The translations under genes were made by a program, and so were the position numbers. 46,020 nucleotides of DNA, taken from positions 1 to 46,020 of the forward strand of contig CACZVX010000029.1 in assembly GCA_902784755.1 (NCBI GenBank), written 5' to 3'. Positions 2,936 to 23,242 of this stretch are shown in pieces (the first letter of the stretch is position 1; the number at the start of each line of letters is the position of its first letter). This DNA comes from an uncultured Prevotellaceae bacterium. Lineage in GTDB: Bacteria; Bacteroidota; Bacteroidia; Bacteroidales; Bacteroidaceae. The notes under the pieces were generated by a model. That model saw only the letters and a list, made by a program, of their open reading frames with translations, was not told where the DNA came from and did no database searches.

Positions 2936-3240
2936 TCATTTTTGTTTTTAGCTGTTGACTAAGATACGCCTTTTCTTCGTTATCGGCAAACTACTGTAAC
3001 AGAAAATTTGTGGAATCTTTGAAAACCTCGGGGGCGTATGTCTTGGGGGCTGACCTTGATGTGACCCATTAATGATGATTGTGAACAGAAGAGACTTCAC
3101 CTTGTTCTGCGTAATAGTTTAGGCGTATTGTTCATTGAGTTGCAGCCTGTCCGTGATGGATGGGCTGCAACGCTTTTATATAAAGGGTAAAGCGAAAAAC
3201 GCACAAACGCATAAACGCACAAAATTCGTTTTACTACTAT

Positions 3241-3392
3241 TGACTTCGTCGATAACGGGCTTCACCTTGGCATAAGTCATGCAAGCGCGACTTCTGCTCT
3301 CGGTTCGCACCGTCATTGACTTCGTCGATAACGGGCTTCACCTTGGCATAAGTCATGCAAGCGCGACTTCTGCTCTCGGTTCGCACCGTCAT
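3241..3392. repeat. Two perfect tandem copies of a 76-bp unit
   Basis: 3241-3316 is repeated immediately at 3317-3392 with no difference that I can see. Each unit contains an imperfect hairpin (CTTGGCAT ... ATGCAAG). Perfect identity means the duplication is recent or kept identical by conversion. The unit has no coding frame and resembles dispersed intergenic repeats of Prevotella-type genomes, which is recollection and not a search. Confidence 0.85.
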
Positions 3393-3473
3393 TCTCTGCG
3401 TCCTTATTTCTCCCCCAACTGGCGCGCTGCTTCAGCTGAGGTCTGTTCCCTGTAAAAGAATCATACACTCTAC

Positions 3474-8499: not shown

Positions 8500-8501
8500 A
8501 T

Positions 8502-8760
8502 TAATTAGTAATGAGTAATGAGTAATTAGTAATTATGATTACCTGACAGGGGTGGCGGCTTCCTCTTGAGAGTGAATCTGATTAAGTAATTAGTAATTAG
8601 GAATGAGTAATTAGTAATTATGATTACTTTACAGGGCGGCGACTTCCTCTTGAGAGTGCTACGAACCCTTTATTCAAGGAATTAGGAATTAGTAATTATG
8701 ATTACCTGACAGGGCGGCGATTTCCTCTTGAGAGTGCTACGAACCTTTTATATTAATCTG
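8502..8760 (-). repeat. Three direct copies of a heptamer-array unit between the M20 gene and the HhH gene
   Basis: On the plus strand, heptamer arrays (consensus KAATKAG) ending in GATTAC occupy 8502-8542, 8587-8627 and 8679-8705. Each is followed by the same 40-50 bp flank (core ACAGGGCGGCGACTTCCTCTTG, shown here in parts: ACAGGGCGGCGA then TTCCTCTTGAGAG). The flank of the third copy runs into the 3' end of the M20 gene (stop at 8737-8739). The other two carry broken copies of that gene tail, so the unit was duplicated with the end of the gene. Confidence 0.8.
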
Positions 8761-9834: not shown

Positions 9835-9910
9835 CAAAATTAGGAAAAAAACCCGAGACTGAAAAATTTCGGTGATTATTTTGTTTTTTGATTTTTTATT
9901 TGTACTTTTG
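9835..9910. promoter_or_regulatory. Divergent promoters between argE and the acyl-CoA synthetase gene
   Basis: For the plus-strand synthetase, TTG (9881-9883), 19 bp and TACTTTTG (9903-9910) make a full -33/-7 promoter, with the ATG 24 bp further on. For the minus-strand deacylase, TAATTTTG lies on the complement of 9835-9842, 27 bp before its ATG, without a clear -33 box. Confidence 0.7.
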
Positions 9911-9934
9911 CGTTTTAATAAACATGTTACGCTT

Positions 9935-11743
9935 ATGCAAACAAGATGTCATTATTCGCAACTAATCCATAAGCAGGCAGAAAAGTATGGTGACCGCACG
10001 GCGCTCATCTATCGTGATTTCGGCAGCCTGAAGTGGAAGGAATGTTCGTGGAATGAGTTTTCCAAGAATGTCCGGGTGGTGAGCAATGCCATGCTCAACA
10101 TGGGGGTGAAGGTGCAGGAGAATGTAGGTGTGTTCTCGCAAAACACAGTACAGTACCTGTTCACGGACTTCGGTGCCTTTGGCATACGTGCCGTTACCGT
10201 GCCGTTTTATGCCACCAGTTCGGAGCAGCAAATCCAGTTTATGATTGGTGACGCACAAATCCGCATCCTCTTCGTGGGTGAACAAGAGCAGTATGACAAG
10301 GCTTACCGTGTGCTGCCGCTATGCCCGACGCTGGAGAAGATCATTATTTTCGACTCTTCCGTGCGCAAGGCCCAGCACGACACGTCCAGCATCTATTATG
10401 AGGAATTTCTGAAGCTGGGTGAGGGCTGTCCGCGTCAGAGTGAGTTGGAAAACCTGTACGCACAGGCGAATGACGACGATATTGCGAACATTCTCTATAC
10501 CAGTGGAACAACGGGAGACTCGAAGGGTGTGATCTTGACCCACGGACAGTTTAATGCGGCGATGATAGCCAACGACGAGAACCTGCCGGTGGACGAAAAG
10601 GACCGCGTCATGTGCTTCCTGCCGCTGACGCACGTGTTTGAGCGAGGCTGGTGCTTCCTGTGTATCTCGGAGGGTGCCACCATCATCGTGAACACTTATC
10701 CGAAGGAGGTACAGGAGTCCTTGCGCGAGACGAATCCCACGTGTATGAGTAGCGTGCCCCGTTTCTGGGAAAAGGTGTATATCGGCGTGAAGTCGAAGAT
10801 TGAAAATGCCGGTGCCGCGAAGCGCAAGCTTTTCAAGCATGCCCTTGCCGTAGGTCATAAACATAATATTGAATACCTGAGCCGTGGCAAGCGTCCGCCG
10901 CTCGCTTTGGCAATGGAATATAAGATGATGGATAAGACGGTGTTCTCGCTGGTACGCAAGCAGCTGGGCCTGGAGAATCCGAACTTCTTCCCGACGGCAG
11001 GTTCCTATGTGTCGCCTGAGGTGGAGGAGTTTATCCACAGCATCGGCATCTATATGATGGTGGGCTACGGTTTGACGGAGAGTCTCGCCACGGTGAGCAA
11101 CGACCATAAGGGAGAGCCTTTCACCATCGGTTCGGTGGGACGTCCGATTAACGGTCTGGACATCAAGATCGGAGAGAACGATGAGATTCTGCTGAAGGGT
11201 CCGACGATTACACGCGGCTACTACAAGCGCGATGCCCTGAATGCAGAGGCTTTCACCGAAGACGGCTACTTCCGCACGGGTGATGCCGGTTACCTGAAGA
11301 ACGGTGAGCTTTATCTGAAGGAGCGCATCAAGGAGCTTTACAAGACCTCCAACGGCAAGTATATCGCACCGCAACTGATTGAGTCGAAGCTGCTCGTGGA
11401 CAAGTTCATAGAGCAGATTGCCGTCATTGCCGACCAGCGGAAGTTTGTAAGCGCCCTCATCGTGCCGACGTTCGATGTGCTGGAGGAATATGCCAGGGAC
11501 AATGATATCGAGTTCACGTCACGTGAGGACCTCTGCAACAACAAGAAAATCTACAAGATGATGGAGGAGCGTATCGCCACGCTGCAGCAACAGTTGGCCA
11601 ACTACGAAAAGGTGAAGCGCTTCACCCTGCTCCCCACCCCCTTCTCGATGGAAGCTGGTGAGCTGACCAATACGCTGAAAATCAAGCGCCGCGTTCTCAA
11701 CAAAAATTATGCTGCACAAATAGAAGCCATGTACGAAGAGTGA
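9935..11743 (+). CDS. fadD: Long-chain fatty acid-CoA ligase (AMP-forming)
   Basis: The 602-residue enzyme activates fatty acids to acyl-CoA via an acyl-adenylate. The AMP-binding P-loop YTSGTTGDSKG begins at residue 188. Also visible are the LPLTHVFERG stretch, GYGLTES (motif binding the adenine/acyl region), YFRTGDAGYL with the ribose-binding Asp, and a C-terminal lysine region (NTLKIKRR). The ATG at 9935 follows a good promoter. An upstream GTG at 9872 would place the start inside the promoter and was rejected. The protein matches the soluble FadD15-like group common in Bacteroidetes, likely used for recycling or import of fatty acids. It is followed six bases later by the heptamer element. 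Confidence 0.88.
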   Translation: MQTRCHYSQLIHKQAEKYGDRTALIYRDFGSLKWKECSWNEFSKNVRVVSNAMLNMGVKVQENVGVFSQNTVQYLFTDFGAFGIRAVTVPFYATSSEQQIQFMIGDAQIRILFVGEQEQYDKAYRVLPLCPTLEKIIIFDSSVRKAQHDTSSIYYEEFLKLGEGCPRQSELENLYAQANDDDIANILYTSGTTGDSKGVILTHGQFNAAMIANDENLPVDEKDRVMCFLPLTHVFERGWCFLCISEGATIIVNTYPKEVQESLRETNPTCMSSVPRFWEKVYIGVKSKIENAGAAKRKLFKHALAVGHKHNIEYLSRGKRPPLALAMEYKMMDKTVFSLVRKQLGLENPNFFPTAGSYVSPEVEEFIHSIGIYMMVGYGLTESLATVSNDHKGEPFTIGSVGRPINGLDIKIGENDEILLKGPTITRGYYKRDALNAEAFTEDGYFRTGDAGYLKNGELYLKERIKELYKTSNGKYIAPQLIESKLLVDKFIEQIAVIADQRKFVSALIVPTFDVLEEYARDNDIEFTSREDLCNNKKIYKMMEERIATLQQQLANYEKVKRFTLLPTPFSMEAGELTNTLKIKRRVLNKNYAAQIEAMYEE

Positions 11744-11749
11744 TCGGCC

Positions 11750-12205
11750 TAATTAGAAATGAGTAATTAGGAATTAGTAATTATGATTACATTTGTATGA
11801 TGAAGAGAAGCGAGAATGTGGTTGTAGAGAAGACGGAACATTTCGCTGACCGAATTATTAAGATGTGCAGATATCTAAATAAAAGAGGCTCTGCTGAAAA
11901 GGATATGCTCCGGCAAATTTATAGGAGTGGCACCAGCATAGGTGCAAATACTGCCGAGAGCCAGTATGCCCAAAGCAGGGCTGATTTTTTGACAAAGTTG
12001 ACAATCGCCTTGAAAGAAGCTAATGAAACAAAATTCTGGCTGGGAAGGCTTTATTCAGCAGAAAACCTGACAGACGAAGAATATTCGTCAATAAGGGATG
12101 ACAATGAAGAAATAATAAAGTTATTAACAAGCATAACAGGAACGGTAAAAAAGTCTGGGTAAGAGTAATCATAATTACTCATTACTCATTCCTAATTACT
12201 CATTA
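11750..12205 (+). mobile_element. Heptamer-ended element enclosing a four-helix-bundle ORF
   Basis: The left arm (11750-11790) and right arm (12165-12205) are each exactly 41 nt: five heptamers of consensus KAATKAG and a terminal GATTAC, in inverted orientation, about 34 of 41 positions matching. The ORF at 11797-12162 starts six bases inside the left arm and ends two bases before the right arm, so the arms wrap the gene precisely. The element fills the gap from the fadD stop (11743) to the prfB start (12214). A transcript would fold into a long stem with the ORF as its loop. Confidence 0.65.
11797..12162 (+). CDS. Four-helix-bundle protein (23S rRNA intervening-sequence protein family)
   Basis: The 121-residue acidic/basic helical protein has the family's key text: an N-terminal F-A-D-R-I-I-K helix, RSGTSIGANTAESQYAQSRADFLTKL (given in pieces: RSGTSIGANTAE at about 43-54, then FLTKL near 64-68), and KEANETKFWLGRL near 73-85. 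This is the S23/IVP family (TIGR02436-type), found inside 23S rRNA intervening sequences of spirochaetes and as free genes in Bacteroidetes, and related to the Avd accessory proteins of diversity-generating retroelements. Biochemical role is unknown; nucleic-acid binding is inferred from the relatives. Here it sits inside inverted heptamer arms, recalling the stem-enclosed layout of rRNA intervening sequences. Confidence 0.85.
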   Translation: MMKRSENVVVEKTEHFADRIIKMCRYLNKRGSAEKDMLRQIYRSGTSIGANTAESQYAQSRADFLTKLTIALKEANETKFWLGRLYSAENLTDEEYSSIRDDNEEIIKLLTSITGTVKKSG

Positions 12206-12213
12206 AGAAACAG

Positions 12214-13332
12214 ATGATTACGCAAGATCAGTTGAAGGATGTGCTGCAAAGGACAGAAGATTTGCACCGCTATCTGGACATCGACCGAAAACAAATAGAA
12301 TTCGAGGAGGAAGACCTCCGCACACAGGCTCCTGACTTCTGGGAAGACCCCAAAAGGGCACAGGAGCAAATGAAAAAGGTGAAGGACATCAAGCGCTGGC
12401 TCGATGGCTATAAAGAGGTACGTACCCTGGCCGACGAACTGCAGCTTGCCTTCGACTTCTTTCATGAGGATATGGTCACTGAGGAAGAGGTGGACGAGGA
12501 TTTTAATAAGGCCATCAAAGCCATCGAGGATCTGGAACTGAAGAATATGCTCCGCCAAAAGGAAGACCCGATGGACGCCGTGCTGAAGATTAACTCCGGG
12601 GCAGGAGGTACGGAGGCACAGGACTGGGCCGGCATGTTGATGCGTATGTATATGCGCTGGTGTGAGGCTCACGGACATAAAGTGACGATTGCCGACCTTC
12701 AGGAAGGTGACGAGGCGGGCATCAAAAGTGTGACGATGGAGATTGAGAAGGGAGAGTATGCCTATGGCTACCTGAAGAGCGAGAACGGTGTGCACCGTCT
12801 GGTGCGCGTTTCACCGTTTAATGCCCAAGGTAAGCGCATGACGAGTTTCGCCTCCGTCTTTGTGAGTCCGCTTGTGGATGACACCATTGAAGTGTATGTA
12901 GATCCCGCCAAACTCTCTTGGGACACCTTCCGTTCCTCTGGTGCCGGCGGTCAGAATGTGAACAAGGTGGAATCGGGTGTGCGCCTGCGCTATTGGTACA
13001 CGGACCCTGATACTGGTGAAGAAGAGGAAATTCTCATTGAGAACACCGAGACCCGTGACCAGCCTAAAAACAAGGAGAAGGCCATGCTGTTGCTGAAGTC
13101 GCAACTCTACGACCGTGCCATGAAGAAGCGTCTGGAGGCTCAGGCCAAGATTGAGGCCGGCAAGAAGAAGATTGAATGGGGCTCACAGATCCGCTCCTAC
13201 GTCTTTGATGACCGCCGGGTGAAAGATCACCGTACCAACTATCAGACCACGGATGTGGATGGTGTGATGGACGGTAAAATCGATGAGTTCATCAAGGCCT
13301 ACCTCATGGAGTTTCCCGTCAATGATCAGTAA
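12214..13332 (+). CDS. prfB: Peptide chain release factor 2, encoded without a programmed frameshift
   Basis: The 372-residue factor recognises UGA/UAA stops and triggers peptide release. The stop-recognition tripeptide SPF is at 200-202 and the catalytic GGQ at 245-247 within SSGAGGQNVNKVESG. In most bacteria prfB needs a +1 frameshift near codon 26 at CTTTGA. Here the equivalent region (HRYLDIDRK, residues 18-26, codons CTG GAC) is read in a single frame with no stop, so this autoregulation is absent. The start codon is 8 bp after the heptamer element, so its leader is made of element sequence. Confidence 0.95.
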   Translation: MITQDQLKDVLQRTEDLHRYLDIDRKQIEFEEEDLRTQAPDFWEDPKRAQEQMKKVKDIKRWLDGYKEVRTLADELQLAFDFFHEDMVTEEEVDEDFNKAIKAIEDLELKNMLRQKEDPMDAVLKINSGAGGTEAQDWAGMLMRMYMRWCEAHGHKVTIADLQEGDEAGIKSVTMEIEKGEYAYGYLKSENGVHRLVRVSPFNAQGKRMTSFASVFVSPLVDDTIEVYVDPAKLSWDTFRSSGAGGQNVNKVESGVRLRYWYTDPDTGEEEEILIENTETRDQPKNKEKAMLLLKSQLYDRAMKKRLEAQAKIEAGKKKIEWGSQIRSYVFDDRRVKDHRTNYQTTDVDGVMDGKIDEFIKAYLMEFPVNDQ

Positions 13333-13334
13333 TA

Positions 13335-13506
13335 TAATGAGTAATTAGGAATGAGTAATTAGGAATTATGATTACTTTCGTTGGCGGAATCTGGACAGAA
13401 ATTGAAAGTTTGAAATTATATTAATCAAAATATTAACAACGAGTGTGTGTAGTTGGAGGAATCGGGTCATCATAATTACTCATGATTCACTACTCATTAC
13501 TCATTA
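13335..13506 (+). repeat. Heptamer-ended element without an ORF (172 bp)
   Basis: The left arm 13335-13375 and right arm 13466-13506 are each 41 nt, with the same heptamer-plus-GATTAC plan as the element at 11750, inverted. The right arm is more diverged (GTCATC instead of GTAATC). The 90-bp core begins with TTTCGTTGGCGGA, shared with the element at 15981, and has no coding frame. The element starts 2 bp after the prfB stop and ends 11 bp before the next start codon. Confidence 0.7.
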
Positions 13507-15980: not shown

Positions 15981-16145
15981 TAATGAGTAATTAGGAATTA
16001 GGAATTAGAAATTATGATTACATTCATTGGCGGATTTATAAAAATAATAACGAAAAATCATAAGGTAAATCAGTAGGGGAAAAGGTAATCATAATTGCTA
16101 ATTACTAATTCCTAATTACTAATTACTCATTACTCATTACTCATT
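15981..16145 (+). repeat. Heptamer-ended element without an ORF between the two symporter genes (165 bp)
   Basis: The left arm 15981-16021 (41 nt) faces a longer inverted right arm 16085-16145 with eight or nine heptamer units, so the right array has expanded. The 63-bp core starts with ATTCATTGGCGGA, shared with the element at 13335, and has no ORF. It begins 2 bp after the first symporter stop and ends 8 bp before the second symporter ATG. Confidence 0.7.
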
Positions 16146-22371: not shown

Positions 22372-22538
22372 AGCATTTCAGTCCACATATCCCTAGTACA
22401 ACAGATAATTTACGGATAATTAACAACCCCATTCAATCGTGAAAAAGAGGCTTGCACAAATAACAAAGTCGTATCGCACGACGACGGAGAACCCATCGTA
22501 GGTGCCACCGTAATGATGAAAGTGCCACATCGCCACTT

Positions 22539-22751
22539 TGCCACTTTGCCACATTAAGGTGATTCCGACTTTCGGGGATTTGTGTAGAGTACTATAGTTA
22601 CTATAATATATAATATATAATTATATATTATATATTATAGTAAAATTATTGTACTTATAACCCATAATATTTTTTACTCCAATTTGTTTCAATCCACAAC
22701 CGCTCCCCCTGGCCTACCCCCTTGGAAGGGGCTTAATGTGGCAAAGTGGCA
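22539..22751. repeat. 213-bp inverted-repeat element with octamer arms
   Basis: TGCCACTTTGCCACATTAAG (22539-22558) is exactly complementary to 22732-22751. Both arms extend outward as GCCACWWT octamer repeats. The core holds the 46-bp palindrome and a CCCCTT/AAGGGG hairpin (22718-22731). No ORF. It looks like a miniature mobile or structural element. Confidence 0.7.
22598..22643. repeat. 46-bp perfect AT-only-core palindrome
   Basis: 22598-22620 and 22621-22643 are exact reverse complements with no spacer, almost entirely A/T (one C/G pair per arm). It could extrude as a cruciform in DNA or fold as a 23-bp hairpin in RNA. Confidence 0.9.
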
Positions 22752-22830
22752 TTGTGGCATTGTGGCATTTTCGGGGTTTGCATAAAAAATCCACTCCCGA
22801 AATGAGAGGGGCTGTTTTTTTCCTCAAAAT

Positions 22831-23036: not shown

Positions 23037-23242
23037 AGAGACACAAAATCGCGATTAAGTGAGTACCATAAGAGCTTGCTCTTAAATGGTCGAACGTGAG
23101 CGATTTATTTAAAGACACAAAGTCTAAAAGTCATCGTCATAGTCATAGTCATAGTTGAATTATGATAGTGAAAAAAACACCAATAAGAGAATGACTGGAG
23201 CCGCATCTTCTGTGAAGAATGCAGAGCCTTTTTTACTAAAAA

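Follow-up and report, generated by a model that had tools for sequence, protein, structure and literature searches.

Gene arrangement at the locus

The window analysed here, a stretch of 46,020 nt from an uncultured Prevotellaceae bacterium (contig CACZVX010000029.1 of assembly GCA_902784755.1), contains a small gene tightly framed by inverted tandem repeats. An AMP-binding acyl-CoA ligase-like gene (9872-11743) ends 6 nt ahead of a left arm (11750-11790) of five KAATKAG-like heptamers followed by GATTAC. An ORF of 121 aa (11797-12162) starts 6 nt after this arm and ends 2 nt before the right arm (12165-12205), the inverted complement of the left one, and the ATG of prfB (12214-13332) follows 8 nt further downstream. 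Gene, arm, ORF, arm and prfB all read in a single direction on the plus strand. The arms are 41 nt each and 83% complementary, and their flank alignment score of 47 was reached by none of 2000 composition shuffles. Just past the stop of the upstream gene, all three reading frames meet stop codons within the left arm. The arms, their five heptamers with GATTAC and the close spacing of the ORF are as described in the original prediction, whose coordinates are confirmed; its placement of the layout between protein genes likewise holds. The site is not within a 23S rRNA helix, and the only Rfam match across the window is a tRNA.

The ORF belongs, as had been proposed, to the four-helix-bundle family of 23S rRNA intervening sequence proteins (IVP). 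Profile searches assign it to PF05635 with 74.8 bits (curated cut-off 33.8, E = 7e-21) and to TIGR02436, "four helix bundle protein", with 88.3 bits (cut-off 24, E = 4e-25), and by sequence it has a solved relative in 2rld (E = 1.4e-28). PF05635 matches occur in 131 of 150 congeneric genomes and in 299 of the 394 genomes of a phylum sample; the accessible portion of PMC4990558 gives no function for these proteins.

Elements without an ORF

The expectation that ORF-less copies occur nearby is correct for two plus-strand elements. The first (13335-13506, arms at 13335-13375 and 13466-13506, interior of 90 nt) lies between prfB and the next small ORF, the second (15981-16145, arms at 15981-16021 and 16085-16145) after a sodium-dependent transporter gene. 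Their inner ends read GATTAC on the left and GTAATC or GTCATC on the right. Between two minus-strand genes, three direct tandem copies (8501-8751, minus strand) each consist of one arm with a GATTAC end and about 40 nt of interior; viewed from the minus-strand operon these are the right arm and interior, with the left arm absent, so that a half-element has been amplified.

The second part of the expectation, that such copies derive from the ORF-bearing form, is clear for only one of five interiors, and internal deletion of the ORF is not supported as their general origin. The interior of L056 clearly retains the 3' end of the ORF (none of 200 shuffles as good). Those of window element E2 (3' end, 5 of 200 shuffles) and L067 (5' end, 10 of 200) are suggestive, and no clear ORF trace was found in window element E3 (24 of 200) and L068 (30 of 200). 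Three ORF-less copies in genome G015 (L279, L280 and L281) have about 14 nt of interior in common, as expected of copies of one element. Two ORF-less stretches of the window's own genome (L295:8690-9030 and L306:270-600) are mostly alignable, yet differ in the array unit of both arms, which parallels the joint change of arms at IVP loci.

Other repeats in the window include inverted 8-nt arrays (GCCACTTT-like) at 22524-22769, separated by 179 nt that contain an AT palindrome, upstream of an ORF at 23155. An array of the unit AAACGCAC at 3197-3223 recurs on contig C17, where it forms each of the two arms of an element (L306:355-525), and an exact 76-bp tandem duplication lies at 3239-3393.

Inverted arms at other PF05635 genes

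The generality of this layout was assessed in 182 PF05635 loci: four from the own genome, 29 + 40 from congeners, 30 + 40 from the phylum sample, 25 from named records matched by the window protein and 14 of 25 plasmid matches. Congener and phylum loci were partly drawn from the upper part of E-value lists, and IVP genes interrupted by internal stops (L001, L029, L103, L110 and L149 among others) are counted. One locus was dropped for short flanks. For the remaining 181, the upstream 200 nt were aligned to the reverse complement of the downstream 200 nt, and a score of at least 24, a threshold fixed after the first 102 loci (79 of 102; later loci, by subtraction, 57 of 79), was taken to indicate arms.

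Inverted complementary arms, mostly of tandem 7- or 8-nt units, flank 136 of the 181 genes. The same score was reached at 4 of 352 shifted positions, in 192 of 3620 combinations of an upstream flank with the downstream flank of another locus, and by 29 of the 181 loci in direct orientation. Arms are present at 61 of 72 loci from congeners and the own genome, 24 of 25 from named records, 39 of 70 from the phylum sample and 12 of 14 from plasmids; several of the 45 genes below the threshold have short arrays by eye. The periodicity of the flanks has maxima at 7 (27.7%, versus 1.4% of shifted flanks) and 8 (11.6% versus 0.6%), and among the 136 armed loci the upstream arm fits a period of 7 best in 75 cases and one of 8 in 37. 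The 12 armed plasmid copies span all five phyla, and the plasmid records are titled complete except for one linear Planktothrix record, so that the pattern is no artefact of draft assembly. Among 15 further loci, taken from 12 genomes picked for their many arrays, 12 have arms (one of the 15, L247, repeats L070). At two loci, L256 and L265, the arrays are direct instead of inverted. The association of arms and ORF that the original prediction anticipated in related genomes is thus present, and arms are not placed at random relative to the ORF. These data support the conclusion that the helix-bundle gene and its arms belong together. The GATTAC ends are a feature of the window clade; across the family the unit varies, and what is shared is the inverted pair of short-unit arrays.

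By record annotation, seven of the 14 plasmid IVP genes adjoin or sit amid defence-type genes (L110, L117, L118, L119, L120, L122 and L123), whose types are type I R-M, cas, DISARM/BREX-like, methylase/helicase and DUF1156/Swt1. The IVP frame L110:1495-1845 from Monoglobus (Bacillota), with two stops, lies between hsdS and hsdR; its flanks have TAATTAG-like units as in Prevotella, possibly reflecting transfer together with the arms.

Arm units, sites and proteins

The array unit varies by locus (for example TAATTAG, GAGTTTTT, AGTCGTTT, GGTTATAC or GTAGGAA), and the two arms of a locus match each other better than those of other loci at the same site. We define a site by its homologous downstream gene. 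The loci fall into 91 downstream-gene clusters, that is, unrelated operons are occupied. In the 13 groups of at least three loci (88 loci) the mean own-pair score is 40.3 versus 24.3 for cross-locus pairs, and none of 2000 within-group permutations matched the observed own-pair mean. In 12 of the 13 groups own pairs score higher on average than cross-locus pairs, in groups 3 and 8 by little, where the units are alike; group 10 is the exception (24.3 versus 25.7). For site 4, which is ATPase-type, paralogues may have been grouped together. On a protein tree of 86 rows, with few columns and many forks unresolved, the downstream-gene groups require 18 label changes (minimum 12, shuffled 62.3). 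The proteins thus mostly stay beside their gene, and any movement must be old or rare. The simplest reading is long residence at one site with both arms changing together, either through selection for pairing or through copying of one arm from the other.

The unit also follows the protein across sites. Among 120 loci, arms at different sites are similar in 26 of 31 pairs with a protein identity of at least 70%, a class to which near-copies contribute, in 47 of 152 pairs at 60-70%, in 18 of 346 at 50-60% and in 5 of 3423 below 30%. Arm similarity and protein identity are correlated (r = 0.41, reached by none of 500 permutations). With the arms compared in opposite polarity, none of the 529 different-site pairs of at least 50% identity is similar.

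Heptamer arrays across genomes

A parallel association is seen at the level of genomes. At least 12 KAATKAG-array matches occur in all 12 congeneric genomes with a protein 61-100% identical to that of the window, against 22 of the 138 others (Fisher 3e-9 over 150 genomes, a statistic that ignores shared ancestry). The cut of 12 was picked with the table in view; with a cut of 10 the others number 25 of 138 (p = 1e-8). Including G097, a partial match of 60% identity with five array matches, changes the comparison to 12 of 13 versus 22 of 137 (p = 4e-8). Some genomes are rich in the reversed control pattern, too, G047 having 62 matches to it. KAATKAG-like flanks are present at 17 of 17 window-clade loci. 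Of the 22 array-rich genomes outside this clade 12 were searched, and all 12 have some PF05635 gene; KAATKAG-like flanks occur at 7 of 26 IVP loci fetched from them, in 6 of the 12 genomes, where the fetched loci are part of the IVP genes of partial assemblies. This is little above the background (29 of 160 loci), and the idea that array-rich genomes generally carry a cognate IVP gene was not retained.

Within the own genome the units of IVP loci are not consistently foremost. In the own-genome sample the window unit comes third among 154, matching 8 of 62 arrays, whereas the unit of L001 has 3 matches (rank 26) and that of L002 has none, like 119 of the 154; in G015 the own unit ranks ninth (21 of 63 arrays). 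The proposal that own units lead all others is accordingly only partly true.

Arrays of this kind raise the first alternative, namely that they are heptamer repeats of the ordinary intergenic kind, which slippage or another agent has spread and among which IVP genes settle or are tolerated, the protein being irrelevant to the arms. Over-representation of heptamers in bacteria has long been known (PMC4692102, PMC4679880, as far as their accessible text goes), and most arrays in the samples lie outside inverted pairs (G015, 45 of 65; own genome, 48 of 64). Inverted intergenic pairs number one in the samples of five IVP-free genomes and two in those of five IVP-rich ones. Other complete ORFs are sometimes bracketed too: 20 of 252 in the IVP loci, 12 of 307 in 434 kb of the own genome (including the window IVP and prfB, which lies between two elements) and 22 of 267 in 400 kb of G015, one of them its IVP. 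Array-rich genomes often have no locus of matching unit among those fetched, and G003 has arrays with no IVP gene detected. Overall, intergenic arrays of 7-9 nt units are rarer in the five genomes without IVP genes, with 5 in 349 kb versus 41 in 395 kb of five IVP-rich genomes (1.4 versus 10.4 per 100 kb, one-sided p = 0.009, five against five); all five of the former are in G003, and G144 has one weak IVP match. This difference speaks against an irrelevant protein, as do the tracking of protein identity by the unit across sites, the joint change of the two arms of a locus and the association of unit and protein clade among genomes. We consider ordinary repeats an unlikely explanation of the arms, though one that deserves serious weight.

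Occupied and empty sites

The comparison of occupied and empty sites that the original prediction called for can be made between species, and finds the element present or absent at the same site. The survey comprises the 30 best prfB matches, that is, the own locus and 29 relatives, of which 23 have the ligase gene adjoining. In 19 of these 23 the ligase-prfB gap is 2-75 nt without arrays; the other four hold an IVP element (L226), arrays (L233) or other sequence (L230 and L232). In L240, outside the scored set, the ligase end lies directly ahead of prfB. Since the same gene pair is mostly without an insert in relatives, the window element is best read as an insertion and not as part of the ancestral gap.

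In records that carry an IVP gene, the gaps before and after prfB, the latter bounded by a CYTH gene, are variously IVP-bearing, ORF-less, otherwise filled or empty. The gap after prfB contains a different PF05635 gene with another unit in L065 (Pfam E = 5e-24), is array-free and filled by other sequence in L055 and L066, and is short and empty in L060. The filling in L055 is a different inverted element (GGAGCCTCCCCCGCCCC...) where the window has the ORF-less heptamer element. In the gap before prfB of L059 and L060 the IVP gene has doubled arms on either side, as nesting of one element in another would produce.

Direct signs of recent movement could not be found among these genomes, which are one per species. 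No target-site duplication is evident by eye in the prfB-flanking gaps, and none of six copy pairs compared indicates a recent jump. Only one of the six is near-identical (L204:1368-2437 and L205:1668-2737 in G117); this duplicate of about 1.07 kb holds an IVP gene with short flanking repeats. The common stretch extends beyond the element, which indicates that a larger segment was duplicated, and recent transposition was rejected for this pair. A label of REP-type transposase for the frame downstream was dropped as well, as it has no Pfam or NCBIfam match. The other five pairs (one each in G359 and G249, three in G098) gave no alignment above threshold.

Orientation and secondary structure

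Both neighbours lie on the IVP strand in 104 of 118 callable loci out of 139 non-redundant ones, while among pairs of adjacent genes from the rest of these loci 77 of 119 share an orientation. In 126 of the 139 loci G outnumbers C in the upstream arm. Folding of the window element, suggested as a check on the original prediction, yields a long predicted RNA stem with z = -6.1. The other two two-armed window elements also give long predicted stems, with z = -2.1 and -8.6; the former fold is weak, 8 of 200 shuffles folding as well. Arm mismatches on the sense strand of the 139 loci show no excess of G-U over A-C (128 versus 148, p = 0.25). An A-C excess seen early (G-U 54 versus A-C 84 in 75 loci, p = 0.013) vanished at 139 loci, and wobble asymmetry was abandoned as an argument for a sense-strand stem. 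Neither strand is thus favoured, and pairing at the RNA and at the DNA level is not told apart by this signal.

Co-orientation with the neighbours, long residence beside one gene and a position adjoining stop and start codons would also suit a host regulatory RNA, that is, a vertically kept intercistronic hairpin that tunes the up- or downstream gene and has the protein as its local binding partner. TAACTGA heptamers have been proposed as translational regulators (in the accessible part of PMC4679880). Such a role fits poorly with the gene pairs that have no insert in most of the relatives examined, with the occupation of unrelated operons, as reflected in the 91 downstream-gene clusters, and with the lack of a G-U signal, and we regard it as improbable. 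A retroelement route, with the protein in an Avd-like role and reverse transcription of the stem RNA in trans, was suggested by the likeness of PF05635 to Avd, the related four-helix-bundle family of diversity-generating retroelements (PMC10053308, in the portion available). No reverse transcriptase (RVT_1) match was found in the own genome (G000, 84% complete), which leaves the supposed link to Avd systems unsupported, sets the element apart from diversity-generating retroelements, an assignment that we reject, and makes this route highly improbable.

Interpretation and relation to known elements

We prefer to interpret the locus as an insertion element of the intervening sequence (IVS) type, enclosed by a stem and located between protein genes of an operon, whose protein recognises the units of its arms; we assign this reading a probability of roughly 0.55. 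Such an element would consist of a single IVP-family gene with inverted arrays of 7-9 nt units on either side and would be read as part of the operon transcript, in which pairing of the arms may yield a long stem whose loop holds the gene. RNase III might cut out this stem, in analogy to the intervening sequences of rRNA, and leave the neighbouring cistrons usable. With the left arm immediately past one stop and the right arm immediately ahead of the following start, an insertion need do no harm. The protein is related to pentameric four-helix bundles. Its most likely role is to recognise the units of its own arms, whether as RNA or as DNA, and it may help to maintain or spread the element, which would then be mobile, with the ORF-less copies as its non-autonomous relatives.

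The closest known system is the IVS in the 23S rRNA of Coxiella burnetii, for which the following is taken from the accessible portion of PMC4990558. It is 428 nt long, contains an S23p/IVP ORF and has terminal inverted repeats that form a 28-bp stem; two or three tandem heptamers, depending on the strain, lie upstream of the ORF, and RNase III cleaves at the start of the first repeat. It is in sense orientation in its host transcript and has been termed selfish, with earlier proposals of mobility. The window element shares its ORF family, the capacity for a terminal stem and heptamers, and the kinship to 23S intervening sequences named in the original prediction is apt with regard to family and stem. 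The likeness in heptamers rests on the upstream ones, as an inverted recurrence downstream is not stated in that portion. Production of the Coxiella protein was doubted there and the RNA suggested to matter more, which counts against the need for a protein in that copy. Unlike the 23S IVS, which resides in an rRNA helix, the elements described here lie between protein genes, with several IVP genes and several unit types per genome and with ORF-less relatives.

Likewise similar are the intergenic 7-nt tandem arrays of cyanobacteria, Beggiatoaceae and Xanthomonas (PMC4679880, PMC4692102). Some of these heptamers form inverted pairs (Xanthomonas) or are often found near start codons (Beggiatoaceae), but in the accessible parts of both papers they are not linked to an IVP or four-helix-bundle gene, nor is an agent behind them named. 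BrickBuilt, a MITE-type element of Porphyromonas gingivalis (PMC4596501, available in part and compared by description), is another inverted-repeat element of Bacteroidota with a tandem repeat. There the repeat is internal, whereas the present elements have their tandem units as terminal arms and include a form with an ORF. In open-access literature, as far as its text was available and with subscription literature mostly uncovered, we found no paper that joins the PF05635 family to heptamer arms outside rRNA. What is new is thus best read as a stem-enclosed IVS-type element in protein operons instead of rRNA.

A wider version of the IVS-type reading is conceivable, and we put it forward with considerable doubt. 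It would recognise a widespread mobile class in which the protein reads a 7-9 nt unit, much of the heptamer repeat content of Bacteroidota and Cyanobacteria represents its non-autonomous copies, some process rewrites both arms together, preserving complementarity as the sequence turns over, and the rRNA IVS is the same element in an rRNA helix. The small share of KAATKAG-like flanks at the IVP loci fetched from array-rich genomes lowers its odds.

The findings tie a puzzling protein family to common heptamer repeats, in a framing seen across several bacterial phyla. If protein and repeats belong together, each becomes a handle on the other, and the protein should predict the unit. The concerted turnover of the paired arms itself calls for an explanation. 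If the IVS-type reading is true, the long-known 23S intervening sequences would be members of a broader family, whose elements owe their tolerance to the capacity to fold out of RNA.
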